Shown here one piece after another: positions 2,592-38,357 of a DNA stretch of 64,000 nt (its first letter is position 1; each line of letters begins with the position of its first letter). This DNA comes from Lysobacteraceae bacterium (lineage in GTDB: Bacteria; Pseudomonadota; Gammaproteobacteria; Xanthomonadales; Rhodanobacteraceae). Under the pieces are notes generated by a model, which made no database searches, was not told where the DNA came from, and was given only the letters and a program-made list of their open reading frames with translations. Made by a program: the position numbers and the translations under genes. The DNA lies in assembly GCA_004143945.1 (NCBI GenBank), contig SEHB01000007.1:124001-188000 (forward strand). Reading direction: 5' to 3'.

Positions 2592-4718
2592 GTGGACGCA
2601 TCCCGCTCCCGTTCCATCCACCGCCTGGCGTTGGCCGGCGCGATCCTCGCCGTTTCGGCGCCGCTCCATGCCGAACCGCCGGCAGCCGGCGGCGGCCTGC
2701 AGCTCGTGGTCGGGGTCGCCCCCGACGACGGCAACCCGGACACCTGCGGCACCGCGACGAGCCTCGCGTTGCACGCGGGCGAGGCGATCAACTTCTGCTA
2801 TACGCTGACCAACGGCACCGGGACGACGCTCGGCTACCACACGCTGGTCGACAGCGTCGACGGCGAGGTGTTCGCGCTGCTGCCGCACGCGCTCGCGCCC
2901 GGCGAGAGCTATCAGGCGAACCGCATCGTGTTCCCGGCCGAAGGCAGCCGCGACTACGTGTCCGAGTGGACGGCGCAGGATTTCGCGCCGGGCTACGCCG
3001 GCATCGCGGGCACGCCCGCCTTCATCGACATCCGCGCGACCGGTACGCCGCTGGCCCTCGGCGACGACACCGCCAGCGGGATCACCCTGCCATTCCAGGT
3101 CACGCTGTACGACAGCACGTCCAGCCTGCTCAGCATCGGCAACAACGGCACGATCGCGCTCGGAACGCTCGACGGCGCCAGCTACGCGTTCAACACGCCG
3201 GTACCCGACCCGTTCGCGGCACCGATGGGCGGCGCGCTGATCCTGCCGTTCTGGGACGACTTCGATGTCTCGACCGGCGGGGTCTACTGGCAGGTGTTCG
3301 GCGATGCGCCCGCGCGTCGCGTGGTGGTGCAGTGGGAGCGAGCGCACTTCCTGCAGGACCAGGGCCAGCCGGCATCGTTTGAAGTGATCCTCGGCGAGGA
3401 CGGTTCGATCTCGTTCCAGTATGCGAACACCGTGCTCGGCGATCCCGACTTCCCGGAGTGGGACGGCGGTGGCAGCGCCACGGTGGGCATGCAGGACGCG
3501 CAGGGCGCGCTCGGCAACCTGTATTCGTTCGACTCGCCGGCGCTCGCGTCCCCGGACGCGATCGACTGGATCGCGACCGATCCGCAGCTGTTCACGGCGC
3601 AGGCGAGCGTGCACCTCGATGTCGCGCCGGCCCTGTTGCCCGCGACGATCCAGCTGACGCCCGACCCCGTCACCGCGACGGGCGCCCCCGGAGGCGCCGC
3701 GGTCAGCGTGCCGCTGCAGATCGCGAACGACGGAGACATCGCGCTCGAATGGTCGCTGCTGGAGGCGCCCGGGAGCGGAACGCCGCGCACTGCGGCGAGG
3801 CCCGCGGCGACACCCGTGCGCTCCACCGACGCGGTGCGCAAGATGGCCGCGAACGAGGCGACGCGCGACAGCTACCGCTCGCACGTCGCGCCGTTCGTGC
3901 CGATGCGCGGCGGCATCACGCCAGGATGTGACGATGCGACGCCCGGCATCCTGATCCACGACGACGGCACGCCCGAAGACGGCTACACCGACGGTTCGGG
4001 ATTGTTTCCGCTCGCGTCTTACGTCGACCGCTTCACGCCGACCTCGTATCCCGCGACCTTCAGCAGCGCCTGCGTGTCGTTCCTGAGCCAGGGCTCGACC
4101 AGCGCCGCGTTCGAACTCGTGGTCTATGACGACAGCGGCTGGGATGGAAGCCCCGGCAACGAACTCGCCGCCGTGCCCGCGCTTGCGACCGGGATCCCGA
4201 GCACCGCGGTCGCCGCGTTCACGCGCGTCGACCTGTCCGGACTCGGCCTCGTGGTCGAGGCGGGCAGCGTGTACATCGGCGTGCGCTTCAACCCGCTGTC
4301 GCCGGGCGACATCTACGTCGCGTCCGATGTCGACGGGGAACCCAACGCCGGCGCCGGCTTCCTCTCGCGCGGTGCGCCCGGCGCGCCGGGCGGGTGGGAC
4401 CCGATCGTCGATCGGTTCGCCGACTACCACGCGCTGCTCGTGCGCGCGGTCGAGCAGCCCGCGCACTGCGCGACGCCCGCGGACCTGCCTTGGCTCTCGC
4501 TCGATGTCGTCGCAGGCAGTGTGGACGCGCATGCCGCCACCACCGTCACCGCGACGTTCGACCCCTCGCAACTCGAGGCAGGCGAGCATGCAGCCACGTT
4601 GTGCATCGACAGCAACGACCCCGCGCGGCCGCACCTCGCGGTGCCCGTGAGGTTCCAAGTGGGCGACACGCTGTTCGCCGACGGTTTCGACGCTGCGGCC
4701 GGCACCCGCACGCGATGA
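2592..4718 (+). CDS. Large secreted beta-rich protein with FADGFD tail
   Basis: Exported protein of 708 residues. With a GTG start at 2592 it opens with a good signal peptide (hydrophobic LALAGAILAVSA, cleavage near residue 27 after LHA). The frame is open further upstream, but that stretch is Arg/Pro-rich and unlike a leader. The body is Gly/Asp/Thr-rich with beta-sandwich character. The C-terminal 90 residues (WLSLDVVAGSVDAHA to LAVPVRFQV) resemble the BACON/ASPM-type Ig-like domains often found in anchored surface proteins. It ends GDTLFADGFD plus eight residues, the tail shared with many other secreted proteins here. Its stop overlaps the next start (ATGA), so the two are probably translated together. 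No enzyme motif was seen; surface or matrix function is inference. Confidence 0.7.
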   Translation: MDASRSRSIHRLALAGAILAVSAPLHAEPPAAGGGLQLVVGVAPDDGNPDTCGTATSLALHAGEAINFCYTLTNGTGTTLGYHTLVDSVDGEVFALLPHALAPGESYQANRIVFPAEGSRDYVSEWTAQDFAPGYAGIAGTPAFIDIRATGTPLALGDDTASGITLPFQVTLYDSTSSLLSIGNNGTIALGTLDGASYAFNTPVPDPFAAPMGGALILPFWDDFDVSTGGVYWQVFGDAPARRVVVQWERAHFLQDQGQPASFEVILGEDGSISFQYANTVLGDPDFPEWDGGGSATVGMQDAQGALGNLYSFDSPALASPDAIDWIATDPQLFTAQASVHLDVAPALLPATIQLTPDPVTATGAPGGAAVSVPLQIANDGDIALEWSLLEAPGSGTPRTAARPAATPVRSTDAVRKMAANEATRDSYRSHVAPFVPMRGGITPGCDDATPGILIHDDGTPEDGYTDGSGLFPLASYVDRFTPTSYPATFSSACVSFLSQGSTSAAFELVVYDDSGWDGSPGNELAAVPALATGIPSTAVAAFTRVDLSGLGLVVEAGSVYIGVRFNPLSPGDIYVASDVDGEPNAGAGFLSRGAPGAPGGWDPIVDRFADYHALLVRAVEQPAHCATPADLPWLSLDVVAGSVDAHAATTVTATFDPSQLEAGEHAATLCIDSNDPARPHLAVPVRFQVGDTLFADGFDAAAGTRTR

Positions 4719-5438: not shown

Positions 5439-6812
5439 ATGAACCTGTTGCTTCCGATCGTTCCGTATGCGGGCGCCCTGGCGCTGCTCGCCTCGCCCGC
5501 ACTCGCCGCCCCTGGAGACCTCGACCCGGGATTCGGGCTTGATGGCCGCGCACTCGTCGGGTTCGGTCCGGGTGTCGCGCAGGCGCGCGCGATCGCGCGC
5601 TTTCCCGATGGGCGCCTCGTGCTCGCCGGCAGTTCCGGCGGTGCTGTCTTCGACGACGACTGCGCGATCACGGTTCTGACCGCGGAAGGCGCACCGGATC
5701 CGTCGTTCGGCATCGACGGGCGACTCGAGATCGACCTCGACGCCGGGCGCGTCAACACCTGCACGAGCGTTGCGGTGCAACCGGACGGCCGCATCGTGCT
5801 CGCCGGTTCGCGTGACACCGGCACGCCGGCCGGCACGCGCGATTTCGTCGTGATGCGCCTGCACCCCGACGGCGCATTCGACGAGAGCTTCAGCGACAAC
5901 GGTTATGCATTCGTCAATTTCGCGCTGCCCGGGCCCGTCGTCCGTTCGATCGACGAAGCGAACGCGCTCGCGCTGCAGCCGGACGGACGCATCGTCATCG
6001 CAGGCACCGCCGAGCGCGCGCCAGGCGACTACGACTTCGCACTCGTGCGGTTCCTGCCGGACGGCACGCTCGACGACAGCTTCGGGGAAGACGGCCGCGT
6101 CACATTCGGCGTCGACGATGGCGGTCCGACGGTCGACTCCGTCTCGGCGGTGGCGATCTGCCCGGAAGGGCGCATCGCACTCGCGGGTACGTCGGAAAGC
6201 GAGGACAGGCGCATGTTCGTCGCGCGCCTCGCCGCGGACGGCCAGCTCGATCCAGGCTTCAACCTGACGGGCCACCGCCTGGTCCAGTTCGGTTTCGCCC
6301 CCGAATCGATCGGCACGTCACTCGCGCTGCGCAGTGACGGGAGCATGCTCGTCGGTGGATACGTCGCGGATGGCGTGACCGCCGACTTCGCGGTCGCCGC
6401 ACTCGCCCCGGATGGCAGTTACGACGCCGACTTCGGCGTCGACGGCCGTGTCACGCTTGATGTCGGCGAGGAGGACGGCGCGTTCGCGATGACCACCGAT
6501 GCATCCGGGCGCGTGCTGCTCGCTGGCGTGCGGATCGAGCCTGGCCACACCGACATCGCAGCGGTGCGCTTGCTCGCGGACGGCTCGGCAGACGCCGCGT
6601 TCGGCGATGCGGGTCGCGTCGTCATCCCGTTCGACCTCGATGAGTCCGACGACACCGATCTCGCACGAGCGATCCTCGTGCAGCCCGACGGCAACGTCGT
6701 GCTGGCGGGAGCCGCGGTGACGTCGAGCGCACCCGCCGGCGCGGCATTCGCGGTGGTGCGCCTGCAGGGCGACGAAGTTTCGCTGTTCGCGGATGGCTTC
6801 GACGCCGACTGA
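5439..6812 (+). CDS. Secreted delta-60 repeat beta-propeller protein with FADGFD tail
   Basis: 457 residues from the ATG at 5439, chosen because it opens with a clean signal peptide (MNLLLPIVPYAGALALLASP, cleavage near residue 23); the frame upstream is Arg/Pro-rich filler. The mature protein is made of about seven delta-60 repeats, each with a D-x-x-F-G-x-D/N-G turn (DPGFGLDG, DPSFGIDG, DESFSDNG, DDSFGEDG, DADFGVDG, DAAFGDAG) followed by a DGRIVLAG-like strand. Such repeats build propeller or solenoid surface proteins of unknown activity. It ends SLFADGFDAD. It faces the CHAT gene convergently, 75 bp away. Two other delta-60 proteins occur near 33.5 and 35.5 kb. Confidence 0.8.
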   Translation: MNLLLPIVPYAGALALLASPALAAPGDLDPGFGLDGRALVGFGPGVAQARAIARFPDGRLVLAGSSGGAVFDDDCAITVLTAEGAPDPSFGIDGRLEIDLDAGRVNTCTSVAVQPDGRIVLAGSRDTGTPAGTRDFVVMRLHPDGAFDESFSDNGYAFVNFALPGPVVRSIDEANALALQPDGRIVIAGTAERAPGDYDFALVRFLPDGTLDDSFGEDGRVTFGVDDGGPTVDSVSAVAICPEGRIALAGTSESEDRRMFVARLAADGQLDPGFNLTGHRLVQFGFAPESIGTSLALRSDGSMLVGGYVADGVTADFAVAALAPDGSYDADFGVDGRVTLDVGEEDGAFAMTTDASGRVLLAGVRIEPGHTDIAAVRLLADGSADAAFGDAGRVVIPFDLDESDDTDLARAILVQPDGNVVLAGAAVTSSAPAGAAFAVVRLQGDEVSLFADGFDAD

Positions 6813-9702: not shown

Positions 9703-9776
9703 GCACGTTCCCGTCCCGCCTGCGCGCAGCATAGCGCGAGCGCGTGCGGCGCCCTGTGCGAGGCGCCTTGGCTTCT

Positions 9777-9921: not shown

Positions 9922-9999
9922 GCAGGAGCAGGTCCTGCACGGCGTGATCGACGCAGGCGCGGGAAGCAGACGCACGCGTTGCGACGTCGCGCGCCAGGC

Positions 10000-12454: not shown

Positions 12455-14905
12455 ATGAACGCCCAGCCACGCATTCCGGACTTCGCACGCCGCTGCGCCG
12501 CCCTCGTCGCCGGCGCGTGGCTGGTCCTGGCCGCTCCTGCGGCATTCGCACTCGACGTCTGCGTCGAAACGCTCGGTGATCTCGTCGATGGCCTCGACGC
12601 TGCGTTGTCGCCCCAGCCCGACGGCACCGTGACGCTGCGGCTGGTCGCACAGACCTATGCATGGAACGGCAGCGAAGCGGTCGTCCTCGCCAATCGCCTC
12701 AACCTGCTCGGCGGATACGCACCGGGCTGCGGCGCGCGCACCGTCAATCCCGCGAACACCGTGATCGACGGACTCGGCAGCCTCGACCTCGAGTTCTTCG
12801 AAATGGGCCTCGGGCTCACGATCGAGGGCGTGCGATTCAGCAACGTCGAGTTCCTCCGCCTGCATGGCGCGTCATCCTGCGTCGACCTCGGCAACGCGGT
12901 GACCTGGCGGCGCACGATCGTCGACGGCAACGCGGGCGACCTGCGGGTCGGCAGCGCCTGTGGACCGCTCGTGTTCCAGAACAACCTGCTGCGGCAGGCA
13001 TTCGGCACCGTGCTCGAACTGGTCCCCGGGCAATTGGCGATCGACGCCTACGTCGTGAACAACACGTTCATGGGCGCGAGCTCCGGCGACGGGCTGCGCC
13101 TGTTCCGCGGCGAGGACAGCGCGGTCGCGACATTCCGCGTGAGCAACAACCTGATGTGGGGCAGTGCGGGCACCGACTTCGTGCTGTCGGCGAGTGGCGA
13201 CGTGCCGCTGGTAGAGGCGTGGCACAACACCTGGGGCAGCAGCGCCGTGCCGCTGCAGGGCGGCGGCGGGAACGATTCGACCGACCCGCAGCTCGACGGC
13301 AACGGGATTCCCGCGGTGCCGGGCTCGCCCGCGATCAACAGCGGGCACAACAGCCCGCCGGGCGGCCTGCCCGCGGTCGACATCGTCGGCAACGCGCGCA
13401 TCATCGGCAGTGCGGTCGACCGCGGTGCGTACGAATCGAGCGTCGTCGACGTGACCGAACTCGTGGTCACCCACGCGGGCGACAGCGGCTCGGGCTCGCT
13501 GCGCCAGGCGATCCTCGACGCGAACTCGCTGCCGAACTTCAACACGATCCGTTTCGCGATCCCGGGCGACTTCGGCGCGATCCTGATCCCGCAGTCGCCG
13601 TACCCCGACATCGTGACGCCGATGCGCATCGACGGCTTCACCCAGCCGGGTGCAGCGCCGAATGCGAACACGTGGACCAACAGCGCGACCTACCGCATCA
13701 CGATCGCCGGCGGCGGCCAGGTCGCCTACGCATTCCGCGTGCCATTGAATGCGCCGGCGAGCACCTCGCTCGACCTGCGCGGCCTCGTGATCGGCGGTTT
13801 CACCAATGCCGTGCTGCTGCAGTCCGGCAGCGGCCACCGCGTGCGCGGCAATCATTTCGGCCGCATCTCCGGCGAAGTGCTCGGCGGCAGCGACAACCAC
13901 ACGTCGATCTACGTCAACGGCGGCGCCGACGACGTCGACATCGGCGGCCTCGATCCGGCCGAACGCAACTCGATCGCGGGGCATCCGGACCCGATCGCGG
14001 GCGCAGGCTACGGCATCTACCTCGGCGGCAGCGGCCACGGCCATCTGGTCGCGGGCAACCTGATCGGCACGTTTCCGAATGGCAACGAGGCGCATGGCAA
14101 CCGCGTCGGCATCCGCATCGACGGCGACCTCGGCGTCGTGCTGCAGAACGTGATTTCCGGCAACGTGACGGGCGTCCAACTGCTCGGCAACGACAACATC
14201 ATCGCCTCCAACCGCATCGGCCTGAAGGCGTTCGCGTTCTGCCTCCCGCCGTGCGTACCCGACTACGCCTTGCCGAACACGCACGGCATCCACGTGCAGT
14301 CCGATGCCGAAGGCAACGACATCAACCAGAACGAGGTCGCCTGGAACGGCTACAGCGGCCTGATCCTGTTCGCGGGCACGCGGCAGACGACATTGTCGGC
14401 CAACCGCGTGCATGCCAACCAGGTGTTCGACCTCGACCTGCGCGAACCGGCCGGCATCAATCCGATCGATGGCGACGACGTATTGCCCGGCGGCTGCGAG
14501 CAGGCCAATTGCGACCAGAACTTCCCGCTGCTCGACGCCGCGTTCGGCGTGCGCAACGCGGGCCGCGTGCAGGGTTCGCTGTCGACGACGAACGGCGAGT
14601 ACCGCGTCGAGTTCTTCTCGGGCGCGAGCTGCGGCGCGGGCGGGCAGGGCGGCGCGACCCGCTACCTCGGCGCGCGCAACGTCGTCGTCACGGGCGGCTC
14701 GACGTTCCCGCCGAGCAATGGCAGCGCGCTGTTCGACCTGCCGGTGGCGAGCGCCGGCACGCTGTACGGAACCTTCGTCACGGCGACCGCGACCAGCGCG
14801 GGTGGCGACTCCTCGGAGTACTCGGCTTGCGTCGCGTATGCCTGCGACCAGATCTTCGGCCACGGATTCGACGGCGCTTACGCACAAGTCTGTCCCGCAC
14901 CGTGA
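12455..14905 (+). CDS. Secreted right-handed parallel beta-helix protein with CX15C tail
   Basis: 816 residues. Signal peptide 1-32 (LVAGAWLVLAAPAAFA). The body carries the short, Asn/Gly-rich turns of a right-handed parallel beta-helix, including GGYAPGCGARTVNP, GSGSLRQAILDANSLPNFN and IRFAIPGDF, then many NxI/GNxIG turns. It ends with a 20-residue unit CDQIFGHGFDGAYAQVCPAP, with cysteines 16 positions apart. It is a full-length paralogue of the protein at 17273-19735, sharing for example NRIGLKAFA and DYAL. Many such folds bind or cleave polysaccharide, but no catalytic set was recognised. It is divergent from the module 1 sigma gene and preceded by the shared promoter-like motif, suggesting co-regulation. 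Confidence 0.85.
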   Translation: MNAQPRIPDFARRCAALVAGAWLVLAAPAAFALDVCVETLGDLVDGLDAALSPQPDGTVTLRLVAQTYAWNGSEAVVLANRLNLLGGYAPGCGARTVNPANTVIDGLGSLDLEFFEMGLGLTIEGVRFSNVEFLRLHGASSCVDLGNAVTWRRTIVDGNAGDLRVGSACGPLVFQNNLLRQAFGTVLELVPGQLAIDAYVVNNTFMGASSGDGLRLFRGEDSAVATFRVSNNLMWGSAGTDFVLSASGDVPLVEAWHNTWGSSAVPLQGGGGNDSTDPQLDGNGIPAVPGSPAINSGHNSPPGGLPAVDIVGNARIIGSAVDRGAYESSVVDVTELVVTHAGDSGSGSLRQAILDANSLPNFNTIRFAIPGDFGAILIPQSPYPDIVTPMRIDGFTQPGAAPNANTWTNSATYRITIAGGGQVAYAFRVPLNAPASTSLDLRGLVIGGFTNAVLLQSGSGHRVRGNHFGRISGEVLGGSDNHTSIYVNGGADDVDIGGLDPAERNSIAGHPDPIAGAGYGIYLGGSGHGHLVAGNLIGTFPNGNEAHGNRVGIRIDGDLGVVLQNVISGNVTGVQLLGNDNIIASNRIGLKAFAFCLPPCVPDYALPNTHGIHVQSDAEGNDINQNEVAWNGYSGLILFAGTRQTTLSANRVHANQVFDLDLREPAGINPIDGDDVLPGGCEQANCDQNFPLLDAAFGVRNAGRVQGSLSTTNGEYRVEFFSGASCGAGGQGGATRYLGARNVVVTGGSTFPPSNGSALFDLPVASAGTLYGTFVTATATSAGGDSSEYSACVAYACDQIFGHGFDGAYAQVCPAP

Positions 14906-17272: not shown

Positions 17273-19735
17273 TCACGGCTGAGGACACCGCTCCGCGCTG
17301 GCCGAGTCGAAGCCATGCGCGAAGATCGTGTCGCACTGGTAGGGCACGCAGTTGGAGAACTCGGAACTGTTGCCGTCGAGGTCGAACCAGGTCGTCGTGA
17401 TGAAGCGCGGCTGCAGGTTCGCCGCCGATTCGACCGACATCGAGAATTGCGCGGTGCCGCCGGTGCCGGGCGCGCCCGGGATCTCGATGATCGCGAGCCC
17501 GATGCGCGCCTCGCCCTCGCCGAATCCGCTCGCGTCGCAGGACGAGCTGCCGAATGCCTCCATGATGTAGCTGCCGCTGGTGGTCTCGACGAGGCCGGTC
17601 AGTCGTCCCGAATGCTGTCCGCCGCGCGCGGCGGCGAGCGTGGGCGCATTGATGCCGTGGTTGGCGAGCTGGTCGCTGCCGGTGCCCGGGTATTCGGGGT
17701 TGACGCCGGCCACGCCGACGTCGATGCCGAGCGAGGCATTGCGATGGACACCGTTGCCGAGCAGGCGGTTGCGCAGTCCGTCGAACAGCCGGATGCCCTT
17801 CTGCCCGTTGTGCGCGACCTCGTTGTACTGGATGCGGTTGTCGCTGCCACCACCCTGCACGAGCACGCCCATCTCGACGTTGCCGAGCGCGTAGTCCTCC
17901 GGGTCGCACGGTGGCGGGAAGCACAGTGCGAACGCCTTGAGACCGATGCGGTTGGACGTGACGAGGTTGTCGTCGGCGAGCGGCCCTTCGATCAGGATGC
18001 CGTGGGTCTGGTTGCCCGAGATCACGTTGTCCTCGATCACGTTCTCGTGCGTGCGCACGCGCACGCCGAGGTTGTTCGAGGCCATGCCGCCGCCGACCGC
18101 GGTGGTGCCGATGAAGTTGTTGGTCACGCGGTTGCCGTAGCCTTCGGCGCCGCCGCTGTTGTCGAGCAGCTCGATACCCGCGTTCCACGCGAACATGATC
18201 AGGTTGCGCTGCGCGGGGTCGTCGCCGCCGACGACGTTGTCGTGGCTGGTGCCACCGATGCGCACGTTGACCGCGCTGTTGCCGAGCGCGACGGCACCGA
18301 GCGAACCACCGAACTGGTTGCCGTGGATGTGCGAGCCGGCGCCGCCGGCGAGCCGGATCGCCGCGACGTCGAAGCCGCCGAATCCGATTCCGCTGACGTC
18401 GAGGAACTCGGACGCGCCGACGCTGATCGGCATCTGCAGCGCGTGGTTGGTCGAGAGGTCGCCGCGCAGTCCGATGCAGATCGTCGCGTCGAAGAACAAC
18501 GAGGTGTCGGAGGGTTCGCTGCCGGGCTGGGTGTAGCCTTCGATCTTCACGAGGTCGGTGATGTCGGGCAGCGGTCCGGCGAGGTCGATGATGCGCGGAC
18601 AACTGCCGCCGATCGCGAAGCGGATTCGATTGAACCCGGGGTCCGCGTTCGCCTGGTTGATCGCCCAGCGCAACGAGCCACTTGCGGGCGCGGCGATCGA
18701 ATCGCTGGTGTTGGTCACGAGGATGATGCTGCTGTCGGCGGAGGCGGATTCGTAAGGACCCCGGTCGGGCGATGGGCCGATCCAGCGCGTGCCGCCCTCG
18801 ATGTCGCGCGTCGGCAGCGACAGCGGGACCAGCAGGCCGGTGTTGACGGCCGGCGAGTCGTTCTGCAGGTGGTAGTTGCGCGCGCCCGCATCCACGAACT
18901 GCGGGTCGACGCTGATCGTGCCGACCGGCGGGTCGTCCGGCGCGGGCGAGGTGTCGAGCGACTGGTACAGGTTGTTGTAGAGGCTGAGGTCGGACGAGAC
19001 GCGCGTGACGATGTCGTCGCCGGCGTTGTCCCAGAACACGTTGTTCAGCGCGAACAGCCGGAAATCCTCGACGTTATCGGTGCGGGTCAGGCACAGCCCG
19101 TCGCCGCCGTTGTCGGCGAACAGCGAGAACGAGACCGAGGCGAGGTTGAGATCGTACGTGTCGATCTCGAGCGCGCAGCGCGAGCCCGCATGGCCGACGA
19201 CGGCCACCTGCGACAACGACACGTCGTTCGCGTTGACCGAGGCGCGGGCGCCGCTGCCGCTGCAGTTGCCGTTGCCGCAGAGGTTCTCGAGCCAGACGCG
19301 GCTCAAGGTCACGCGCTCGTCCGGGCCATTGCCGCCGTAGGACTCCGCGCGGAAGCCGACGTTGCCGGTATCGACGAACGCGATCGACTCGACCACGATC
19401 GAGTCGTAGCTTAGGACGCTGAACGAGGGCGTCGATCCGGTGACCACGGTGAGCAGCGGGTCGTACTCGCGCGTGCCGCAGCCCGCGGCGTAGCCGCCGG
19501 TGATGCGCACGTTGTGGCCGAGCGAGGGCTCGGGCGCGGCGTCCATCGGGTCGCTGGCGAACGAGTAGGTGCCGCGCACGACGTTGATCTGCACGTCATC
19601 GTCGTCCGCCGCGAGCAGTGCGTTGCGGAATTCCGTGGGGGTGTCGACGCAGCGCGTCTCCAGCGCGATCGCCGGCACGACGAATGCGCAGAGCGCGAGT
19701 CCGGCGAGTCGCAGCAGGGTGGATGAGGCAGGCAT
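17273..19735 (-). CDS. Secreted right-handed parallel beta-helix protein with CX15C tail
   Basis: 820 residues. Signal peptide 1-24 (LLRLAGLALCAFVVPAIA). Repeated beta-helix turns fill the body, with the motifs GSLRWAINQANADPGFNRIR and IEGYTQPGSEP, then a long run of N-x-V/I-x-G-N turns. It is a paralogue of the protein at 12455-14905: NRIGLKAFALCFPPPCDPED here corresponds to NRIGLKAFAFCLPPCVPD there. The last 20 residues are CDTIFAHGFDSASAERCPQP, with the same cysteine spacing as in the paralogue. GGAG precedes the ATG by five bases, and the promoter-like motif lies 30 bases upstream. Substrate and partner are unknown. Confidence 0.85.
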   Translation of the reverse strand: MPASSTLLRLAGLALCAFVVPAIALETRCVDTPTEFRNALLAADDDDVQINVVRGTYSFASDPMDAAPEPSLGHNVRITGGYAAGCGTREYDPLLTVVTGSTPSFSVLSYDSIVVESIAFVDTGNVGFRAESYGGNGPDERVTLSRVWLENLCGNGNCSGSGARASVNANDVSLSQVAVVGHAGSRCALEIDTYDLNLASVSFSLFADNGGDGLCLTRTDNVEDFRLFALNNVFWDNAGDDIVTRVSSDLSLYNNLYQSLDTSPAPDDPPVGTISVDPQFVDAGARNYHLQNDSPAVNTGLLVPLSLPTRDIEGGTRWIGPSPDRGPYESASADSSIILVTNTSDSIAAPASGSLRWAINQANADPGFNRIRFAIGGSCPRIIDLAGPLPDITDLVKIEGYTQPGSEPSDTSLFFDATICIGLRGDLSTNHALQMPISVGASEFLDVSGIGFGGFDVAAIRLAGGAGSHIHGNQFGGSLGAVALGNSAVNVRIGGTSHDNVVGGDDPAQRNLIMFAWNAGIELLDNSGGAEGYGNRVTNNFIGTTAVGGGMASNNLGVRVRTHENVIEDNVISGNQTHGILIEGPLADDNLVTSNRIGLKAFALCFPPPCDPEDYALGNVEMGVLVQGGGSDNRIQYNEVAHNGQKGIRLFDGLRNRLLGNGVHRNASLGIDVGVAGVNPEYPGTGSDQLANHGINAPTLAAARGGQHSGRLTGLVETTSGSYIMEAFGSSSCDASGFGEGEARIGLAIIEIPGAPGTGGTAQFSMSVESAANLQPRFITTTWFDLDGNSSEFSNCVPYQCDTIFAHGFDSASAERCPQP

Positions 19736-22777: not shown

Positions 22778-23809
22778 TCAGTCGAACCCGTCCGCGAACA
22801 GCAGGTCGTTCTCGTACGCGCCGATGTCGACGTGCGCCCCGATCGCGCGCGGCTTGCCGGCGAGATCGGTCGCGGTCATGCCGCCCGCGGGCGCGTCTTC
22901 GCCCATGTCGACGAGCGGCGAGCCGCGCTCGAGCTCGAAACCGATGCAGAGGAAACCGCAGTCGGCGAACTGCGGGTCGACGCTGAGCTCGCCGAGGACT
23001 TCGACCGCCTGCGTGTTCTGGTTGACCACGCCGATGTCATTCGAGTAGCGGCTGTGGCTGGTCGCGAAGCTCGAGAAATCGCTCTGGAACGGTCCGGGTG
23101 ATTCGGACAGGTTGTTCCAGACGATGTTGTTCGCGACTACCCAGTGCGAGTCGCCGCCGATCCAGAGGCCGCCGGGCAGGAAGTCGCCCTCGCTCTGGTT
23201 CGCGACGATCGTGTTCCCGGTCACATGACCTTCGCCCTGGTTCTGCAGCAGCTCGAATGCGCCGATGTTCGCGCTGCTGTTCGCGAATGCGAGGTTGTTG
23301 CGCACCGTGACCGCGCCGTTCGTCGTCGTCAGCGTGGCCGCGCCTCCGAAGTCGTCGGCGCGGTTGGCGAGGAACACGCTGCGGTCGAGCCGGATGTCGC
23401 CGTCGGTGCTCGACACGCGCAGGCCGCCGCCGCGGTTGTTGGTCGAGAGGCCGCGCGCGAACGTGAGGTTCTCGACCGCGACGTCGCCTTGCTCGTTGAT
23501 CACGAACAGGCCGCGCCGTGCGTTCTCGCCGTCGATCCGGGTCGGCTCGTCGCCGGGACCCGTGCAGTTGGCCGAGTAGCCACCGGAGAACGCGATCGAA
23601 TGCGACTCGGAGGACTGGAAATTGAACGCAGGCGTCGCGGCATAGGTACCGCCGACGAGGCGAATCTCGTCGTTCTCGCCGTTCGCCGTCGCCAGCGCGA
23701 TCGCGGCCTTGAACGTGGCGGCGGTGTCGACGCAATGCACCGCCGCATCGACCGGCGAGGCCAGCAGCGCGGCGAACGGCAGGACATGTCGAAGGAGGCG
23801 CAGGTTCAT
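22778..23809 (-). CDS. Secreted beta-helix (choice-of-anchor-Q-like) protein with FADGFD tail
   Basis: 343 residues from the ATG at 23809, chosen for its signal peptide (MNLRLLRHVLPFAALLASPV, cleavage near 22). The beta-helix shows CVDTAATFKAAIALATANGE, then turns such as RLDRSVFLANRADDFGGAA and VTGNTIVANQSEGDF. Near the end, VDPQFADCGF then GAHVDIGAYE is typical of polymorphic, choice-of-anchor-Q-type surface proteins. It terminates exactly in NDLLFADGFD. It is divergent from the module 2 sigma gene, just as the beta-helix gene at 12455 is divergent from module 1's, and the promoter-like motif lies 33 bases upstream. No enzymatic residues recognised. Confidence 0.8.
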   Translation of the reverse strand: MNLRLLRHVLPFAALLASPVDAAVHCVDTAATFKAAIALATANGENDEIRLVGGTYAATPAFNFQSSESHSIAFSGGYSANCTGPGDEPTRIDGENARRGLFVINEQGDVAVENLTFARGLSTNNRGGGLRVSSTDGDIRLDRSVFLANRADDFGGAATLTTTNGAVTVRNNLAFANSSANIGAFELLQNQGEGHVTGNTIVANQSEGDFLPGGLWIGGDSHWVVANNIVWNNLSESPGPFQSDFSSFATSHSRYSNDIGVVNQNTQAVEVLGELSVDPQFADCGFLCIGFELERGSPLVDMGEDAPAGGMTATDLAGKPRAIGAHVDIGAYENDLLFADGFD

Positions 23810-26219: not shown

Positions 26220-26267
26220 CCGGATTTCCTGCGATCGGTTGCCGCTCGCGATGAGGCCGCGTTTTTT

Positions 26268-30485: not shown

Positions 30486-32033
30486 ATGATGCGATTCTTC
30501 CTGCTCGTTCCGTTCGCGCTTGCGCTCGCCGCGCCGGCGACGGCCGATGTGTTCGACGTGACGCGCGCGGACGATCCCGTGCCGGACGGCTGCCTCGCCG
30601 CCGATTGCTCGCTGCGCGAAGCGCTCGAGGCCGCGCAGGCGACGCCCGGGCCGGACACGATCCTGCTCGGCGCGGGCCAGTACTTCGTCACGCGCGGCGA
30701 CCTCGCGGTGTTCGGCAACGTGACGATCGAAGGCGCCGGGCGCGACGCCACCGATCTCGTCGCAAGCGGGTCCCCCGCGGCGATGCGCGTGGCGGCGCAA
30801 TCGCGCTTCGTGTTGCGCGATCTCGCCTGGGCCGCGATCGGTGGCACCGCGGTCGCCGGCGATGCCGACCAGGCTTCGATCACGCTCGAACGCGTCGACG
30901 TACCCGTCGGCGAAGTCGTCATCGGCACGGGGTCGGGCGGGGAAGGCGACCTGCAGGTCCGGCACGCGGAGATCGGCCAGGTCGTGGGTTGCCTGGTGGC
31001 AGACGGCGTGTGCGAAGTGTCCGACAGCCGCACCGGCTTCATCGCGGCGATGGGCGAGCGCGTCGCGCTGCACGTGTCGCGCTGCGAGACCACCCGCAGC
31101 GAAGCGGGCGTGATCGCCTACGGCGGCGGCACGGTGCTGGTCGAGGACAGCACGATCCGCGGCGCGGCGCGGCCGCTCGAGGTGCTGCAGTTCGGCGTTC
31201 CCGAAGCGACCGACGTCATCGTCCGCCGCACGCGCTTCATCGGCAACACCGGCCCCTTGCGCGTGCAGCGCGCGGCCACGGTGCGCATGGACGACGTCGA
31301 GTTCCGTGACAACGTGGTCGCCGGCGACAGCCTCGCCGAGGGCGATCCGGCCGTGCTGCTCGCCGATGCCGGCGCAGCATGGCGCATCAATCGCGCGCTG
31401 TTCGTCGGCAACCGCGGCGGGTCGGGCCTCGATGGCGCGGTCGTGCGCGTGCTCGGCGGCGCGAACGTCGTGATGAACCAGGTCACCTTCGACGACAACA
31501 CCTTCCATCCCGATGCCGGTTCCGGATTCGGCCACTCGATCGGCGTGTACGCGAACAGCGCGGAGGCGACGGTCTTCTGGCTGTTCCACGCGACGTTGCG
31601 CGCGGCGCCTTCGCTGCCCGCCGGGACGCAGGGATCGGTGCTCACGGTGCGTGGAGGCACCGCGAACGTGCGCGTGTTCAACAGCCTGGTCCATGGCAGT
31701 TGTGCGTTCGGCGGCGGCGGCGTGCTGTTCCAGGCCGAAGGCAACATCGAATCGCCCGGCGATACCTGCGGCCTCGACGGCAGCAACGAAGTCGACGTTG
31801 CCCCGATCCAGTTGCACCTGGGTGCGCTCGGCGACCATGGCGGCTTCACGCACACCTACCTGCCGGCGCTCGGCAGTGCGATGATCGACCAAGCGAAGGC
31901 GACCTGGTGCCTGTTCGCGGCGCTCGACCAGCGTCGCCATCTGCGCCCCGTCGATGGCGAATCCTGCGACATCGGCGCGGTCGAAGCCGGCGCGCCGAGC
32001 GACTCGCTTTTCGCAGACGGTTTCGACGTTTGA
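30486..32033 (+). CDS. Secreted beta-helix protein with FADGFD tail
   Basis: 515 residues. Signal peptide 1-20 (MMRFFLLVPFALALAAPATA). The mature start has the CSLREALEAA motif typical of polymorphic/CSLREA-type beta-helix surface proteins, followed by helix turns such as GNVTIEGAGRDATDLVASG and VLVEDSTIRGAARPLEV. A late segment (GGFTHTYLPALGSAMIDQAK, then CDIGAVEAG) is typical of choice-of-anchor-Q proteins. It ends SDSLFADGFDV. No GTTCG-N15-GGCTTC motif is upstream, so it may be controlled differently, possibly by the sigma gene just before it. No catalytic motif recognised. Confidence 0.82.
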   Translation: MMRFFLLVPFALALAAPATADVFDVTRADDPVPDGCLAADCSLREALEAAQATPGPDTILLGAGQYFVTRGDLAVFGNVTIEGAGRDATDLVASGSPAAMRVAAQSRFVLRDLAWAAIGGTAVAGDADQASITLERVDVPVGEVVIGTGSGGEGDLQVRHAEIGQVVGCLVADGVCEVSDSRTGFIAAMGERVALHVSRCETTRSEAGVIAYGGGTVLVEDSTIRGAARPLEVLQFGVPEATDVIVRRTRFIGNTGPLRVQRAATVRMDDVEFRDNVVAGDSLAEGDPAVLLADAGAAWRINRALFVGNRGGSGLDGAVVRVLGGANVVMNQVTFDDNTFHPDAGSGFGHSIGVYANSAEATVFWLFHATLRAAPSLPAGTQGSVLTVRGGTANVRVFNSLVHGSCAFGGGGVLFQAEGNIESPGDTCGLDGSNEVDVAPIQLHLGALGDHGGFTHTYLPALGSAMIDQAKATWCLFAALDQRRHLRPVDGESCDIGAVEAGAPSDSLFADGFDV

Positions 32034-32151: not shown

Positions 32152-33570
32152 ATGCCGCACCCCTCAGCCACGCTCGCCGCGTGCGCGATCGCGCTCGCAC
32201 TGGTCGCCGCGTGCTCGACGCGCCCGGTCGCGAACGCGACGCAGCCTTACGGGAGCGACCCGCAGCTGGTCGCGCCGCAGCGCGCACGACTGGTGCCGAC
32301 CGTGAACATCGCGCCTGCACGCGGCTGGCCGGAAGGCGGGCACCCGCAGCCGGCCGCGGGCCTTGCGGTCGCGCCGTTCGCGTGCGGGCTCGCGCACCCT
32401 CGGTGGTTGCACGTGTTGCCGAACGGTGACGTGCTCGTCGCGGAGACCGATGCGCCCGTGCGCACGGAGGACAACCAGGGGCTGCGCGGCTGGATCATGA
32501 AGCGCGTGATGAAGCGCGCGGGATCGGGTACGCCGAGTGCCGACCGCATCCGGCTGCTTCGCGACGCCGATCGCGACGGCGTCGCCGAGTTCCAGCCGGT
32601 TTTCATCGCCGGTCTCCACTCGCCGTTCGGCATGGCGCTGGTGGCAGACGCGCTGTATGTCGCGAACACCGACGCGCTGCTGCGGTTCGCGTACCGCGAA
32701 GGCGCGACGTCGATCGAGACCGCGGCGACGCGCGTCGCCGTGCTGCCCGGCGGCGACCTCAACCATCACTGGACCAAGAGCCTCGTCGCGAGGCCCGACG
32801 GACGGCGGCTCTACGTCGGCGTCGGCTCCAACAGCAACATCGCGGAGAACGGCATCGAGCAGGAGCGCGATCGCGCCGCGATCCTCGAGATCGATCCGGC
32901 CGACGGCGCCACGCGCGTGTTCGCGTCCGGCCTGCGCAATCCGGTCGGCATGGCCTGGGAGCCGCACTCCGGCGCGCTCTGGGTCGCGGTCAACGAACGT
33001 GACGAACTCGGCGACGACCTCGTGCCCGACTACATGACGTCGGTGCGCGAGGGCGGCTTCTACGGTTGGCCCTGGAGTTACTGGGGCAACCACGTCGACG
33101 CACGCGTCCAGCCGCAGCGCGCGGATCTGGTCGCGCGCGCGATCGCGCCGGACTACGCGCTCGGCGCGCACACCGCCTCGCTCGGCCTCGCGTTCGCGCA
33201 CGGCGATGCGTTGCCCGCGCGTTTCCGCGCGGGCGCGTTCGTCGGCCAGCACGGATCGTGGAACCGGCGTGTTCCGAGTGGCTACAAGGTCGTGTTCGTG
33301 CCCTTCATCGCCGGCAAGCCCGCAGGCCCGCCCGAAGACGTGCTCGGCGGGTTCCTCGATGGTGACGGCGACGCCTACGGCCGTCCGGTCGGTGTCGAGA
33401 TCGCGCGCGATGGTGCGCTGCTCGTCGCCGACGACGTCGGAGGGTGCGTCTGGCGCGTATATGCGTCCGCGGCCGAACAGCGTACGGGCGAGGCGCAGGC
33501 GGCCGCGCTGGGCGCTGACGCCTTGCGCCGCGCGCAACGGCCTCAGTCGAATGAGTCGACGAACAGGTAG
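32152..33570 (+). CDS. PQQ-type sorbosone dehydrogenase family lipoprotein
   Basis: 472 residues from the ATG at 32152. The lipobox LVAAC at residues 17-21 predicts a lipoprotein. The propeller belongs to the L-sorbosone/aldose dehydrogenase family: HPRWLHVLPNGDVLVAET, GLHSPFGMALVADALYVANT, GGDLNHHWTKSLVARPDGR, GSNSNIAENG, SGLRNPVGMAWEP, EGGFYGWPWSYWG and GQHGSWNRRVPSGYKVVFVP. The LNHHWTK and QHGSWNR motifs are family hallmarks near the cofactor and substrate site. Expected to oxidise a sugar or aldehyde in the periplasm with PQQ; substrate not known. Its last 28 bases overlap the end of the convergent delta-60 gene. Confidence 0.87.
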   Translation: MPHPSATLAACAIALALVAACSTRPVANATQPYGSDPQLVAPQRARLVPTVNIAPARGWPEGGHPQPAAGLAVAPFACGLAHPRWLHVLPNGDVLVAETDAPVRTEDNQGLRGWIMKRVMKRAGSGTPSADRIRLLRDADRDGVAEFQPVFIAGLHSPFGMALVADALYVANTDALLRFAYREGATSIETAATRVAVLPGGDLNHHWTKSLVARPDGRRLYVGVGSNSNIAENGIEQERDRAAILEIDPADGATRVFASGLRNPVGMAWEPHSGALWVAVNERDELGDDLVPDYMTSVREGGFYGWPWSYWGNHVDARVQPQRADLVARAIAPDYALGAHTASLGLAFAHGDALPARFRAGAFVGQHGSWNRRVPSGYKVVFVPFIAGKPAGPPEDVLGGFLDGDGDAYGRPVGVEIARDGALLVADDVGGCVWRVYASAAEQRTGEAQAAALGADALRRAQRPQSNESTNR

Positions 33571-34919
33571 TCCGACTGCAACCGCAGCGCAAACGCGTCG
33601 AAATCCGTCCCGCGATCGGCGTAGCCCGCGATCACGGGCTTGCCGGCGCTGAATGCGAGCGCGCTGGCCATGTCGGTATCCGGCCCCAGTTCGAATCGCA
33701 CGACGCCATTGCCATCGAATCCCGGATCGAGGCTGCCGTTCGCGCGCAGGCGCGCGACCAGCACGTCGGTGCCACCGCCGGTGGGCTGGATCTTGCCGGT
33801 CGCGAGGATGCGGCCATCGCCGCGCAGCGCGAGCGCGTCGATGCGCGTGCCGTTCTCGAGATCGAGCGGACGCAGCCCGCCGATGCCGAAGCCCGTGTCG
33901 AGCGTGCCGTTCGCGCGCACGCGCACGATGCCGGCAGCCATGCCGTCCAGATCCTCGTCGACGGTCAGCGCCAGCAGCAGCGAGCCGTCGCGGTCGGCGG
34001 CGAGCGCATTGCTGATCCAGCCACCCTGCGGCGGCGCGGATGGCACGTCGACGAGGCGCACGTAGCCGGTGCCGATGCCGAACGACGCATCGGGCGAGCC
34101 GTCCGGCAGGAAGCGCGCGAGCAGCGGCACGTGCGCGGTGTTGGAGAGATCGCCGTCCCAGCCCGCGAGCACGATGCGTGCGTCCGCATCGAGCGCGATC
34201 GATTTGAACTGCGAGGGCCACGGCACCGGCAGCGACGCCCAGCCTGCGTCGCCGAACGCGGGGTCGGGCACGCCCTCGGCATCGACGCGAAGCACGATCG
34301 CGCTGCGCTGCTGCGGCGCGGTATCACCCCAGCCACCGAACAGGACCTTGCCATCGCGCTGGCGCGCGACGAACCGGATGTCGATGTCGGCCAGCGGCCA
34401 CGGTGCCGACGCGATCACGCGACGGCCATTCGAGCCGAACGCGGGATCGGCATTTCCGGCCGCGGTGAGCCGGACCAGCGCGGGCGCGGAGGCGTTGCCC
34501 GGCATTTCCGCGGTGCCGAGCATCATCAGGCGCGAACCGGGCAGCACGAATGCGCCGAGCGCGATATCCGCGCCTTCCTCGACGAGGTCGATCTGGATCG
34601 TGCGCAGGCCCTGGAAACCGAAGCTGGAATCTGCGCTGCCGTCTGCGCGGAACTTCGCCGCGGCGAAGCGATAGTCGAAGCTTCCACTGGCGGTCGCAGC
34701 CGCAGTGACGAACACGGCACCCGCCGGATCCACGGCGAGCTGCACGCGCGTGGTCGAAAGCGTGGCCCAGTGCGCGTAGGCGACGCCGCCGCCGAACGCA
34801 GGATCGAGGTCCCCGTCCGCAGCGCGCGCGAGGGCGATGCCGGTCAGCACGGCCAGTGCGAGCGAGCCGGCAACGCGGGCTACGGGCGAAAAGCGGCGGG
34901 TGTTCGACACGGGCGACAT
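33543..34919 (-). CDS. Secreted delta-60 repeat protein with FVDSFD tail
   Basis: 458 residues from the ATG at 34919. The N-terminus is a signal peptide (GSLALAVLTGIALARA, cleavage near 33). Delta-60 repeats follow: DPAFGGGV, DSSFGFQG, DPAFGSNG, DPAFGDAG, DASFGIGT, DTGFGIGG and DPGFDGNG, each with a strand like DGRILATGKI. It ends exactly SDYLFVDSFD, a variant of the common tail. The codons for that tail overlap the end of the convergent sorbosone dehydrogenase gene (28 bp shared). A hairpin separates it from the DUF805 gene upstream. Confidence 0.8.
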   Translation of the reverse strand: MSPVSNTRRFSPVARVAGSLALAVLTGIALARAADGDLDPAFGGGVAYAHWATLSTTRVQLAVDPAGAVFVTAAATASGSFDYRFAAAKFRADGSADSSFGFQGLRTIQIDLVEEGADIALGAFVLPGSRLMMLGTAEMPGNASAPALVRLTAAGNADPAFGSNGRRVIASAPWPLADIDIRFVARQRDGKVLFGGWGDTAPQQRSAIVLRVDAEGVPDPAFGDAGWASLPVPWPSQFKSIALDADARIVLAGWDGDLSNTAHVPLLARFLPDGSPDASFGIGTGYVRLVDVPSAPPQGGWISNALAADRDGSLLLALTVDEDLDGMAAGIVRVRANGTLDTGFGIGGLRPLDLENGTRIDALALRGDGRILATGKIQPTGGGTDVLVARLRANGSLDPGFDGNGVVRFELGPDTDMASALAFSAGKPVIAGYADRGTDFDAFALRLQSDYLFVDSFD

Positions 34920-35517: not shown

Positions 35518-36918
35518 TCAGGGCTCGAGCCCGTCGGCGAAGATCCGATCCGACTGCAGGCGCGCGATCCCCGTTGCGAAGCGCGACCCGACCACGTCGT
35601 AGAGCGAACCCGCGAGTACCGGGCGGCCACCCGACAGGCCGATCGCTGACGCGCGCGCATGCGTGTTGGTGTCGATCGGCATCGCGAGCTGGCACACGCC
35701 GTTGCCGTCGAACGACGCGTCGAGCGTCCCGTCGTGCAGGACGCGCGCGGCGAAGAAGTAGGCCTCCGCGGCGCCGTCTGGATCGACCCAGCCTGCCGCG
35801 TTGATGCGACGCTCCGCATCGATCGCGAGCGCATGCACCGCGTTGCCTTCGGCCCATTGCAGCCCGACCAGTCCGCCCTCGCCGAAAACGGTGTCGAGCA
35901 CGCCGGTGCTGCGCACGCGCACGAGGAACGTCGCCGGCACCACCGCCGGCATGTGGGTCGTGTTGAGTGCGAGCATCACCGAGTCATTGCCCGGATCCGC
36001 CGCGAGCGCGGAGGCGTCCCAGCTACCGAGCATGTCGAGCACGACGTGCCCGCCGTTGCCGAAGGTCGCATCCGGCACGCCTGCCGGCGTGAGGCGCAGC
36101 AGCAGCGGACGCTGGCGTTCGTCCGGATCGGTATAGGTTTCCTCGTGGCCGGCGAGCAGCACGCGACCCTGGCGATCGATCGCGACACCGCTGGCGCGCT
36201 CGACCATCCAGGATCCGTCCGGTCCTTCGCGACCGAAGCTCGCGTAGCCGTCGTTGCCGAATGTCGCGTCGGCTGCGCCGGTCGTGGTCAGGCGCATCGC
36301 GACGAAGTCCGGCAATCCACCCTGGCCGCAGTTCGTGCAGAGGCCCGCGAGCACGATGCGTCCTGCGGCATCCTGCGCCGCGTGCGCGAACACGAAACTC
36401 GGGGAGTTCCACGGCGTGTCGGTCACCCACGCCTTGCCGCCGGTGCCGTACGTCGCATCGAGTTGCCCGTCCGCATGCAGGCGCAGGCTGGCCGGAAGCG
36501 CGTACGGCGCCGCGTCGATCCCGGCACTGCCGGCAACCAGCAACTTGCCGTCGGATCGTTCGAACACGCCGAACGCGCGGTCGTCGCCGCCCGCGACGAG
36601 GTCGAACGCGACGACGCGCGTCCCCTGGACGCCGAAGGTCGTATCGAGGCTGCCGTCGCTGCGGAACTTCACGAGCGCGAAGTCGCGGTTGTCGTCGCCG
36701 CGGTCGACCCATCCGGCGGCGACGACGCTGCCGTCGCGAAGCGTCGCGACCGCGGTCGTTTCGGCCTGCACGAAATCCGCGGGCCACACATGCCAGGCGC
36801 GGCCATCGACGTCGAACGTCGGGTCGGGATCGCCGTCGTCGGCACGTGCCCCCGCAGTCGGCAGCGTGAGCGCGAGGCAGGCCAATGCGGCGTGGATCAC
36901 GGTAGGTCGGGCGGTCAT
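35518..36918 (-). CDS. Secreted delta-60 repeat protein with FADGLE tail
   Basis: 466 residues. Signal peptide 1-26 (VIHAALACLALTLPTAGARA). Repeats carry DPTFDVDG, DTTFGVQG, DATYGTGG, DATFGNDG, DATFGNGG, DTVFGEGG and DASFDGNG turns with DGKLLVAGSA-like strands. A CTNCGQGG loop could form a local disulfide. It ends LQSDRIFADGLEP, the common tail with Leu-Glu in place of Phe-Asp. It shares family and the LQSD lead-in with the delta-60 protein just downstream, suggesting a fairly recent duplication. Function unknown beyond a secreted propeller-like protein. Confidence 0.82.
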   Translation of the reverse strand: MTARPTVIHAALACLALTLPTAGARADDGDPDPTFDVDGRAWHVWPADFVQAETTAVATLRDGSVVAAGWVDRGDDNRDFALVKFRSDGSLDTTFGVQGTRVVAFDLVAGGDDRAFGVFERSDGKLLVAGSAGIDAAPYALPASLRLHADGQLDATYGTGGKAWVTDTPWNSPSFVFAHAAQDAAGRIVLAGLCTNCGQGGLPDFVAMRLTTTGAADATFGNDGYASFGREGPDGSWMVERASGVAIDRQGRVLLAGHEETYTDPDERQRPLLLRLTPAGVPDATFGNGGHVVLDMLGSWDASALAADPGNDSVMLALNTTHMPAVVPATFLVRVRSTGVLDTVFGEGGLVGLQWAEGNAVHALAIDAERRINAAGWVDPDGAAEAYFFAARVLHDGTLDASFDGNGVCQLAMPIDTNTHARASAIGLSGGRPVLAGSLYDVVGSRFATGIARLQSDRIFADGLEP

Positions 36919-36995: not shown

Positions 36996-38357
36996 TCAGT
37001 CGAAGTCGTCGGCGAAGATGCGATCGCCAGCGACATCGGTGCGGAAGATGTCGCTGACCGCGCCGTTCGGATCGGATTCGACGAGATCGGCCGAGGTGGA
37101 TTCGAACGCGAGACGGCGCCCGTCGCCCGAGAGGCCGCAGTTCTCCGCGATGCCGTCGCCATTGCCGCCGTCGAGCGCGCGGTTCGCTCGCCAGGTCACG
37201 CCGCTGGCGACGTCGTGGACGAACACGTCGCGGCCGCTGCCGTTCGCGTCGTCGACCGCCAGGTTCGAGGCATCGGAGTGGAACGCGATGATCGAGCCGT
37301 CGTCGGAGATGCACGGGTTGTAGGAGTGCTCGTCCGCGGGCGCTCCATCGTGGCCGCGCGAGACGAGCGTGGTGGTGCCGGTCTCGAGATCGCGCACGAA
37401 CACGTCGGTGAACGCGTTGCCGTCGTCGGCGACGAGGTCGGACGCACTGCTCGTGAAGACCACGTAGCGCCCGCTCGCGGAGATCGCGGCCGAATCGCTG
37501 TGGCCGTCGGAACTTCCGCCGTCGTCGGCGACGCTGACGAGCTCCGTGGTGGCCGACGCCAGGTGGCGCACGAACACGTCATCGCGGCCGTTCACGTCGC
37601 CCGCAACGAGATTGGTCGCGCGGCTGTGGAAAGCCACGTGCTCGCCATCGGCGGAGATCGCGGGCGCGTGGCTGAAGAAGTCGGCGTTCGGGGTCAGCTT
37701 GGTCGTGGTGCCGGTTGCGCGGTCATGCACGAAGATGTCGTCGTGGTTGTCCTGCGCGTCGCCCGCAGCGAGATCGCTCGCGGCCGAGTGGAACGCGATC
37801 ATGCTCCCGTCGGCCGACAGGTCGGGGCTGGAACTGGCCCCGTCCGGCGCGCTGGTGCCGTCCAGCGCGAGCGTGATGCGCTCGATCACGCCGGCGTCGA
37901 GGTCGCGCACGTAGATGTCGCTGCCGAAGCCCGGCGGGTCGTCCGGAATCAGGTCGCTCGCATGCGACACGAACGCGACGATGCGCCCGTTCGCCGAGAT
38001 CGAGGGCGAGGTACTGCGCGCGTTCGCATAGTCGCCGCCGTCGGCCGGATCGCTCACGCGCACGGTCGTGCCGAGCAGCAAGTCGCGCACGTAGACGTCG
38101 GGCTGGTTGTCGTTCGGATTCGGCATCGGGTCGGTGAGGTTAGACGCCCACGACGTGAATGCGATGAAGCGCCCGTCCGCCGACAGCGAAGGCGTCGGCA
38201 GCACATGGTCGTTGCCACCGTCGGCAGGATCGAGCGCGACCGAGACGAGCACGGTGTCGGCGGCCGCGGGCGCGCCTGCAAGGCAGGCAGCCAATGCTGC
38301 GGCGCGGGCCGTCGACCCGGGCACGCGCTTGCGACCGCGAGGTGGAGGCAGGGTCAT
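36996..38357 (-). CDS. Secreted PD40/TolB-like propeller protein with FADDFD tail
   Basis: 453 residues from the ATG at 38357, which has GAAGGAAG upstream; an ATG six codons earlier is possible but has no such site. The signal peptide ends near 33 (AALAACLAGAPAAA). Six or seven repeats of about 60 residues follow the pattern S-x-D-G-R-x-I-A-F-x-S-x-A-S-D-L then DVFVRDL-x-T-G-T-T, as in SADGRFIAFTSWASNL and SGRYVVFTSSASDL, typical of PD40 (TolB-type) blades. It ends GDRIFADDFD. The neighbouring gene in the same direction is a tagged delta-60 protein 77 bp downstream, so the two may be co-transcribed. Confidence 0.82.
   Translation of the reverse strand: MTLPPPRGRKRVPGSTARAAALAACLAGAPAAADTVLVSVALDPADGGNDHVLPTPSLSADGRFIAFTSWASNLTDPMPNPNDNQPDVYVRDLLLGTTVRVSDPADGGDYANARSTSPSISANGRIVAFVSHASDLIPDDPPGFGSDIYVRDLDAGVIERITLALDGTSAPDGASSSPDLSADGSMIAFHSAASDLAAGDAQDNHDDIFVHDRATGTTTKLTPNADFFSHAPAISADGEHVAFHSRATNLVAGDVNGRDDVFVRHLASATTELVSVADDGGSSDGHSDSAAISASGRYVVFTSSASDLVADDGNAFTDVFVRDLETGTTTLVSRGHDGAPADEHSYNPCISDDGSIIAFHSDASNLAVDDANGSGRDVFVHDVASGVTWRANRALDGGNGDGIAENCGLSGDGRRLAFESTSADLVESDPNGAVSDIFRTDVAGDRIFADDFD

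Follow-up and report, generated by a model that had tools for sequence, protein, structure and literature searches.

What is the function of a short peptide that closes eleven secreted proteins of unrelated fold within a single 64-kb stretch of DNA? The stretch, referred to here as the window (64,000 nucleotides), covers positions 124001-188000 of contig 29 in the 3,669,871-base genome (29 contigs) of a Lysobacteraceae bacterium of the order Xanthomonadales. An earlier note, made from the window alone, had described these endings, centred on strings such as FADGFD, and had proposed a sorting, secretion or anchoring signal; all eleven endings (11/11) were present as it gave them, and signal peptides were recognised by eye on 11/11 of the proteins. 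The comparisons set out below suggest that the tail, D-x-[ILV]-F-x-[DN]-G-F-[DE], may be a linear cargo tag, occasionally internal, for the order's canonical (Out/Pul-like) type II secretion system (T2SS), a reading to which we give an even chance.

Searched as a DNA pattern, F[AG]DGF[DE] gave 60 matches in the 3.67-Mb genome and none when reversed. Upstream of each match the frame stays open for 76 to 1333 residues, a count in which the in-frame status is partly a matter of construction, the motif's own frame having been read, and in which the two shortest frames (L060 and L011) are the least certain. The sites share the nine-residue consensus D-x-[ILV]-F-A-D-G-F-[DE]; outside the core fixed by the pattern, position -3 is Asp in 52/60 and position -1 is Ile, Val or Leu in 59/60. 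The bodies of these proteins, compared over up to 520 residues each, show a mean column identity of 7%, and 44 Pfam families are matched among them. So many near-identical copies could also reflect a repeat at the DNA level, or a mobile element, in which genes happen to terminate. This candidate was rejected as very unlikely, to the point of being negligible, since the sites left free by the pattern show the variation expected of codons (the 60 comprise 35 different 18-mers), the bodies are unrelated, and an open frame extends upstream of every copy. The view that exported enzymes lack the tail, drawn from the window, did not hold across the genome, where tail proteins matched Peptidase_S8 (4/60) and Endonuclease_1, Peptidase_M64 and Glyco_hydro_44 (1/60 each). 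No family model of the tail itself was found among the most frequent 25 of 44 Pfam and 25 of 40 NCBIfam families matched by the 60 proteins, nor among the matches of 10 window proteins and 7 tail fragments, and the peptide strings of the short form and of a longer form described below were not found in the literature searched.

An unbiased sample was composed of 400 kb of contig 17 and the window, in which a simple codon model gave 391 genes. The tight motif F[AGSTVR]DG[FIL][DE] matched 12 times, always within 25 residues of the C-terminus (12/12); the earlier note had held that a motif just as common in protein interiors or in cytoplasmic proteins would speak against a signal, and this was not seen. 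By a looser C-terminal rule 19/391 genes are tailed, compared with a mean of 0.39 and a maximum of 3 in 200 shuffles of the C-termini, and this excess, together with the 60 matches against none for the reversed pattern, excludes chance. A signal peptide without further helix was called by rule in 17/19 tail genes versus 100/372 of the others (p = 5e-8); an earlier, looser rule, positive for 215/391 genes, was dropped as too unspecific. Among the proteins of at least 300 residues that satisfy the stricter rule, 17 are tailed and 49 untailed, and the tail therefore marks a subset of the exported proteins.

Strict restriction of the motif to the C-terminus was not borne out, as the stop follows within 25 residues for 50/60 tags and only later for 10/60. 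Internal tags occur, for example, in L022 and L033, which by eye are subtilases, and in an inter-domain linker of L062, and no second, terminal tag was found in the 7 of the 10 internal-tag proteins that were read to their stop. In other genomes, the tag stands directly behind the signal peptide in L166, L162, L299 and L331. Only 14/60 tags end the protein exactly at the last D/E, the remainder running on variably, so that a free C-terminus is not needed. Given its internal and post-signal-peptide positions, the tag behaves as a module needing exposure rather than as an end needing cleavage. A short, apparently exposed and position-tolerant peptide with variable free sites (the 35 18-mers above) would also suit a mark by which a protease or modifying enzyme, periplasmic or extracellular, recognises its substrates in processing, folding quality control or glycosylation. 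However, the short form has no invariant Ser, Thr or Asn acceptor, and general periplasmic PDZ proteases are expected also in relatives without the tail, so that the patchy distribution of the tag would go unexplained; a mark of this kind appears improbable.

Co-occurrence with a canonical T2SS secretin

The distribution of the tail across the order is patchy, with at least one match in 130/249 genomes, a total of 1428 matches to the C-terminal pattern, and 6 to 72 matches in 15/16 genomes of the window's genus. Elsewhere in the class, the C-terminal pattern gave 1-2 matches in 18/364 genomes, with no genome above this number and the reversed control at a like level, and a broader pattern sought anywhere in proteins gave at most 6 per genome. 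A search for T2SS secretins in 80 genomes found, by bit score, two GspD proteins in tail-rich members of the window's family and one in tail-poor members. In a tree of 23 GspD sequences the two secretin types split at 100/100 support, the long branches G601p1 and G632 being unsurely placed. Type A, the canonical secretin, can be aligned from end to end with solved GspD proteins (439 bits at best); for type B the match is largely to the secretin part (146 bits at best), and this type is taken to be Xps.

By a profile of type A, the canonical secretin was present in 103 of the 249 genomes (E below 1e-147) and absent in 142, the latter including 18 genomes of family f2 with an intermediate, Xcs-like secretin; four genomes with partial matches were set aside. 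At least three C-terminal tails were found in 63/103 genomes with the canonical secretin versus 4/142 without it (p = 7e-26, kinship ignored). Within the window's own family the corresponding counts are 6/8 and 0/50, within f2 they are 2/2 and 0/58, and a hand count by genus over both families gave 6/8 versus 0/32 (p = 7e-6). From these genome comparisons, a canonical T2SS is necessary-looking for the tag, and not sufficient.

The association can also be followed on a single enzyme. The genome of the window encodes an extracellular-type endonuclease I (PF04231) whose C-terminal end is DSIFADGFE. The enzyme was found in 37 of 76 genomes searched, the 51 listed matches corresponding to 50 gene copies, all of them examined; three copies at the edge of a stretch were unreadable (one of G422, one of G636, and that of G642). 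In genomes with the canonical secretin 26/34 readable copies are tagged, 24 by the strict pattern and two by eye (LFAWGFED in G037 and, in one copy of G528, EIFHGDFE), and one tagged copy or more is present in 23/24 genomes, all but G028; the secretin type of G009, G013 and G015 was assigned by score alone. In genomes without this secretin, 0/9 copies are tagged (Fisher p = 4e-5 by copies and 3e-7 by genomes, kinship ignored). Seven copies from f2 stop about a dozen residues past the body, for example with CQLAN, and six of the seven genomes holding untagged f2 copies have the Xcs-like secretin. An extended tail is present on the copies of G630 and G638 and on one copy of G636, another G636 copy being without it. 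In the AlphaFold model of the endonuclease (25 sequences), the body is modelled with confidence and the mean predicted local distance difference test score (pLDDT) is 86.6, with 58 for residues 281-290 and 48 for residue 291; the last 11 residues appear poorly defined in this model (58 and below).

The T2SS genes of the window's genome lie on contig 3 (gspC, gspD, gspE and gspF) and contig 28 (gspG, gspH, gspI and gspK), and no family-model confirmation was obtained for gspJ, gspL and gspM. Its GspC scores just under the NCBIfam cut-off (98.4 vs 101.6), and the GspC counterpart of G029 has a clear match to solved OutC and to the PDZ domain of PulC. Next to gspC, and divergent from it, lies a tail gene, after which come genes for an extracytoplasmic function (ECF) sigma factor and a Ser/Thr kinase, and in G442 gspCDE is flanked by two proteins ending in DDLIFSDNFE and TDLIFENGFE; such neighbours are weak evidence because each genome holds dozens of tail genes. 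The ECF sigma factor and the kinase, which contains TPR repeats, adjoin gspCDE in L342 (contig 3, 74001-94000), and similar neighbours were observed in two other genera (L344 and L359).

Under recognition by the T2SS, the signal peptide would take tagged proteins across the inner membrane, and they would fold in the periplasm, where the flexible tag, mostly formed by the last residues and sometimes by a linker or loop, would be bound by periplasmic parts of the system. The reader of the tag would most plausibly be GspC, through its PDZ-like end, or GspD, through its N-domains, or both, and binding would lead to recruitment of the cargo.

T2SS recognition, surface retention and the long form

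A longer form of the tail, typically FADGFESGDTSAWSxxxP directly before the stop, was scanned for as F-A-D-G-F-E-[ST]-G-[DN], with a few other residues allowed at degenerate sites. At least 117 matches were found and, among the matches listed, 94 lie within 30 residues of the stop. A related pattern, counted in 28 genomes behind the long-form loci, gave 31-110 matches in 21 genomes, of which 19 are titled Acidobacteriota (Thermoanaerobaculia, Holophagae and others), one Deltaproteobacteria and one uncultured bacterium; in the phylum of one long-tail genome (119 genomes, that one included), only two are rich and two have one copy. The search for a partner machine in Acidobacteriota did not find one, a canonical T2SS being mostly not recognisable and the GspG-like and secretin loci resembling, by eye, type IV pilus regions. 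In two displayed loci of four, the secretin lies by eye in a pilMNOPQ-like (PilQ-type) operon. The long-tail genomes also show a conserved locus (L422, L423, L424 and L425) where about 2 kb separate two GspG-like pseudopilins, and in most of these loci a prepilin-peptidase-like gene, and in some minor-pilin-like genes, were seen by eye.

Several observations weigh against recognition by the T2SS. Fewer than three tails were found in 40/103 genomes with the canonical secretin (30/35 in f10 and 4/6 in f8), so that the T2SS does not need the tag, and the canonical T2SS of other gammaproteobacteria is known to function without it. Three tails or more occur without the canonical secretin in G434, G506 and G560, which are fragmented assemblies, and in G480. 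Among the endonuclease copies of T2SS genomes, 8/34 are untagged, and six of these eight share an ending about 10 residues past the body, such as VACLFQNVCQ. The PDZ matches of the GspC of the window's genome fall below the Pfam cut-off, and in the long-tail genomes, mostly Acidobacteriota, GspD was over the cut-off in 1/13 and GspG in 0/21.

The chief rival of T2SS recognition is surface retention after export, according to which the proteins would be exported by the T2SS or otherwise and the tag would then bind a surface component or be covalently attached. Retention would explain the presence of the tag in Acidobacteriota without a canonical T2SS, its position behind the signal peptide or inside proteins, and the ability of the T2SS to manage without it. 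The bodies of the tail proteins are likewise consistent with retention, as they match families with anchoring tags: choice-of-anchor Q in 7/60, choice-of-anchor B in 2/60, and, in addition, stretches of myxosortase-, rhombosortase- and type IX secretion system (T9SS)-dependent M36 families and one MYXO-CTERM-anchored family, with E values up to 0.001 and several matches under curated cut-offs. By these matches, the tag would stand where sorting signals stand on related bodies elsewhere. However, the features through which known anchoring routes work (a helix, a conserved cysteine, a basic end) were not seen in the tag, its tie to one T2SS lineage demands an extra assumption, and no candidate receptor or transferase turned up, none having been systematically sought. 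Retention is in our view unlikely, if by no means far-fetched.

As a class, the sorting, secretion or anchoring role put forward in the earlier note is supported by the signal-peptide bias, the mostly terminal position, the unrelated bodies, the relation of some bodies to those bearing sorting tags and the co-occurrence with one T2SS lineage; within that class, these comparative data do not decide between recognition and post-export retention. The more specific statement that the tail would be a linear, transferable and position-tolerant T2SS signal on dozens of unrelated cargoes per genome, with a sister form in Acidobacteriota served by a different machine, is possible and falls somewhat short of an even chance.

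The string of the long form also opens an all-beta domain, beginning FADGFESGxxSxW, in six Chloroflexota loci (L236, L238, L247, L286, L289 and L292); the domain is repeated in L236 and L289, often follows Thr/Pro-rich linkers, and a 54-residue piece of it matched no Pfam family. The tail could on this account be a vestige, namely the functionless left-over first strand of such a domain. Nevertheless, the 1428 C-terminal matches in 249 genomes would require repeated independent truncation at one site, which is implausible, and the AlphaFold model of the Chloroflexota domain leaves its first 50 residues unresolved, so that the resemblance is not explained; a vestige is thus highly improbable. 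A strand-donor role, in which the tail would complete a jelly-roll receptor without a first strand, was considered because these domains begin with the same string, and was set aside, the AlphaFold model leaving this region unresolved and no receptor having been sought. A scan of viral contigs returned 92 stretches, with 23/92 matches within 25 residues of the stop and six with an extended-type tail, and was not used as evidence; the viral-filed contigs with extended-type gene ends (L090, L115, L123, L124, L133 and L147) are perhaps host DNA.

The choice of cargo by the T2SS is an open question, and a nine-residue tag found on dozens of unrelated proteins, whose presence follows one T2SS lineage even when a single enzyme is considered, could turn it into tag-swap experiments. 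The tag could furthermore allow exported proteins of the order to be predicted by a simple rule from sequence and, possibly, provide an export handle. If it were an anchoring tag instead, it would be of a helix-free kind with counterparts in Acidobacteriota.

The eleven tail proteins of the window and their neighbours

The folds of the eleven proteins are unrelated, as the earlier note had described, with Pfam and NCBIfam matches to delta-60/DUF5122, Beta_helix/NosD, FG-GAP, PD40 and choice-of-anchor Q. The core is exactly FADGFD in 4/11 (4718, 6812, 22778 and 32033), the other cores being FADGLE, FADDFD, FVDSFD, FSDGIE, FGHGFD, FAHGFD and FRYGHD, the last of which (21354) is the weakest of the eleven and too divergent to count by itself. 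A rule-based signal-peptide call, covering 10 of the 11, was positive for 8, and the two missed proteins (5439 and 22778) have ordinary signal peptides by eye.

Four of the proteins are encoded on the forward strand. The first (2592..4718) carries its core FADGFD at 4674-4691 and has an end that is weakly choice-of-anchor D-like, under that model's cut-off; it is followed by a delta-60 repeat propeller (5439..6812, core FADGFD at 6786-6803), by a beta-helix with choice-of-anchor Q (12455..14905, cysteine-flanked core FGHGFD at 14855-14872) and by a choice-of-anchor Q beta-helix (30486..32033, core FADGFD at 32010-32027). On the reverse strand lie a beta-helix protein (17273..19735) with the cysteine-flanked core FAHGFD at 17306-17323, two FG-GAP proteins, one (19830..21179) with the cysteine-flanked core FSDGIE at 19863-19880 and one (21354..22631) with the divergent core FRYGHD at 21366-21383, and a choice-of-anchor Q protein (22778..23809, core FADGFD at 22781-22798). 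Two delta-60 propellers (33543..34919, core FVDSFD at 33546-33563; 35518..36900, core FADGLE at 35524-35541) and a PD40 propeller (36996..38375, core FADDFD at 36999-37016) complete this strand. The cysteine-flanked variant is confined within the window to the neighbours 14905, 17273 and 19830 (12455-21179), where the core stands between two cysteines that enclose 15 residues, in the pattern C-D-x-I-F-x-x-G-[FI]-[DE], six residues, and a terminal C-[PA]-x-P, with 10 residues in all after the core.

Tail genes are clustered in the window, with 10 per 64 kb by the loose C-terminal rule (11 with the divergent one) compared with 9 in the 400-kb stretch elsewhere in the genome. A cassette encoding an ECF sigma factor, a Ser/Thr kinase with DUF4384 and a CHAT-domain protein occurs twice in the window (6888-12247 and 24044-29415), the two copies being in opposite orientation and each close to tail genes.

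Comparison with known sorting tags and secretion signals

The C-terminal ends that were read show neither a membrane helix nor a basic end, in agreement with the earlier statement that the tail is not PEP-CTERM- or LPXTG-like, and no Cys, PEP or LPXTG motif with a membrane helix was found in the tails, nor a conserved cysteine in the main form. The tail resembles the MYXO-CTERM, PEP-CTERM and LPXTG tags in recurring many times per genome on exported bodies of various kinds, and related bodies (the MXAN_5453 family and choice-of-anchor domains) bear such tags in other bacteria; it differs from them in lacking the Cys, PEP or LPXTG motif plus helix and in not being strictly C-terminal. GlyGly-CTERM, of the rhombosortase system, similarly marks the C-termini of diverse exported proteins where the genome has a T2SS, and stretches of the rhombosortase-dependent M36 family are matched by 2/60 tail proteins; however, the present tail lacks a glycine/serine stretch, a hydrophobic helix and a basic end, and occurs internally too. 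The C-terminal domains of the T9SS also form a C-terminal address on beta-rich exported proteins, but these comprise 70-100 residues, whereas the present tail has about nine and no folded domain.

With regard to the T2SS itself, its substrates are expected to have a Sec or Tat signal peptide and no further membrane helix; by rule, 17/19 sampled tail proteins have a signal peptide without further helix, and by eye 11/11 of the window have a signal peptide. The tags end in D/E or continue variably, unlike the classical C-terminal ligand of a PDZ domain, which has a free carboxylate on a hydrophobic last residue; according to PMC12369372, an internal loop read by the GspC PDZ domain has precedent. 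The closest functional parallels may be loop 3 of PelI and Pel3 and the immunoglobulin domain of VesB, which are likewise short, exposed and flexible elements on folded exported proteins of an OutC/PulC-kind T2SS. In PMC7949064, an exposed 9-residue PelI loop is described as a T2SS signal contacting GspC and GspD, and PMC12369372 gives the EpsC PDZ domain as required for one substrate, VesB. That 2025 paper also states that T2SS substrates lack a linear universal signal. The PelI/Pel3 and VesB signals are features of single proteins, whereas the tail described here is one linear consensus on dozens of unrelated bodies within a single genome.

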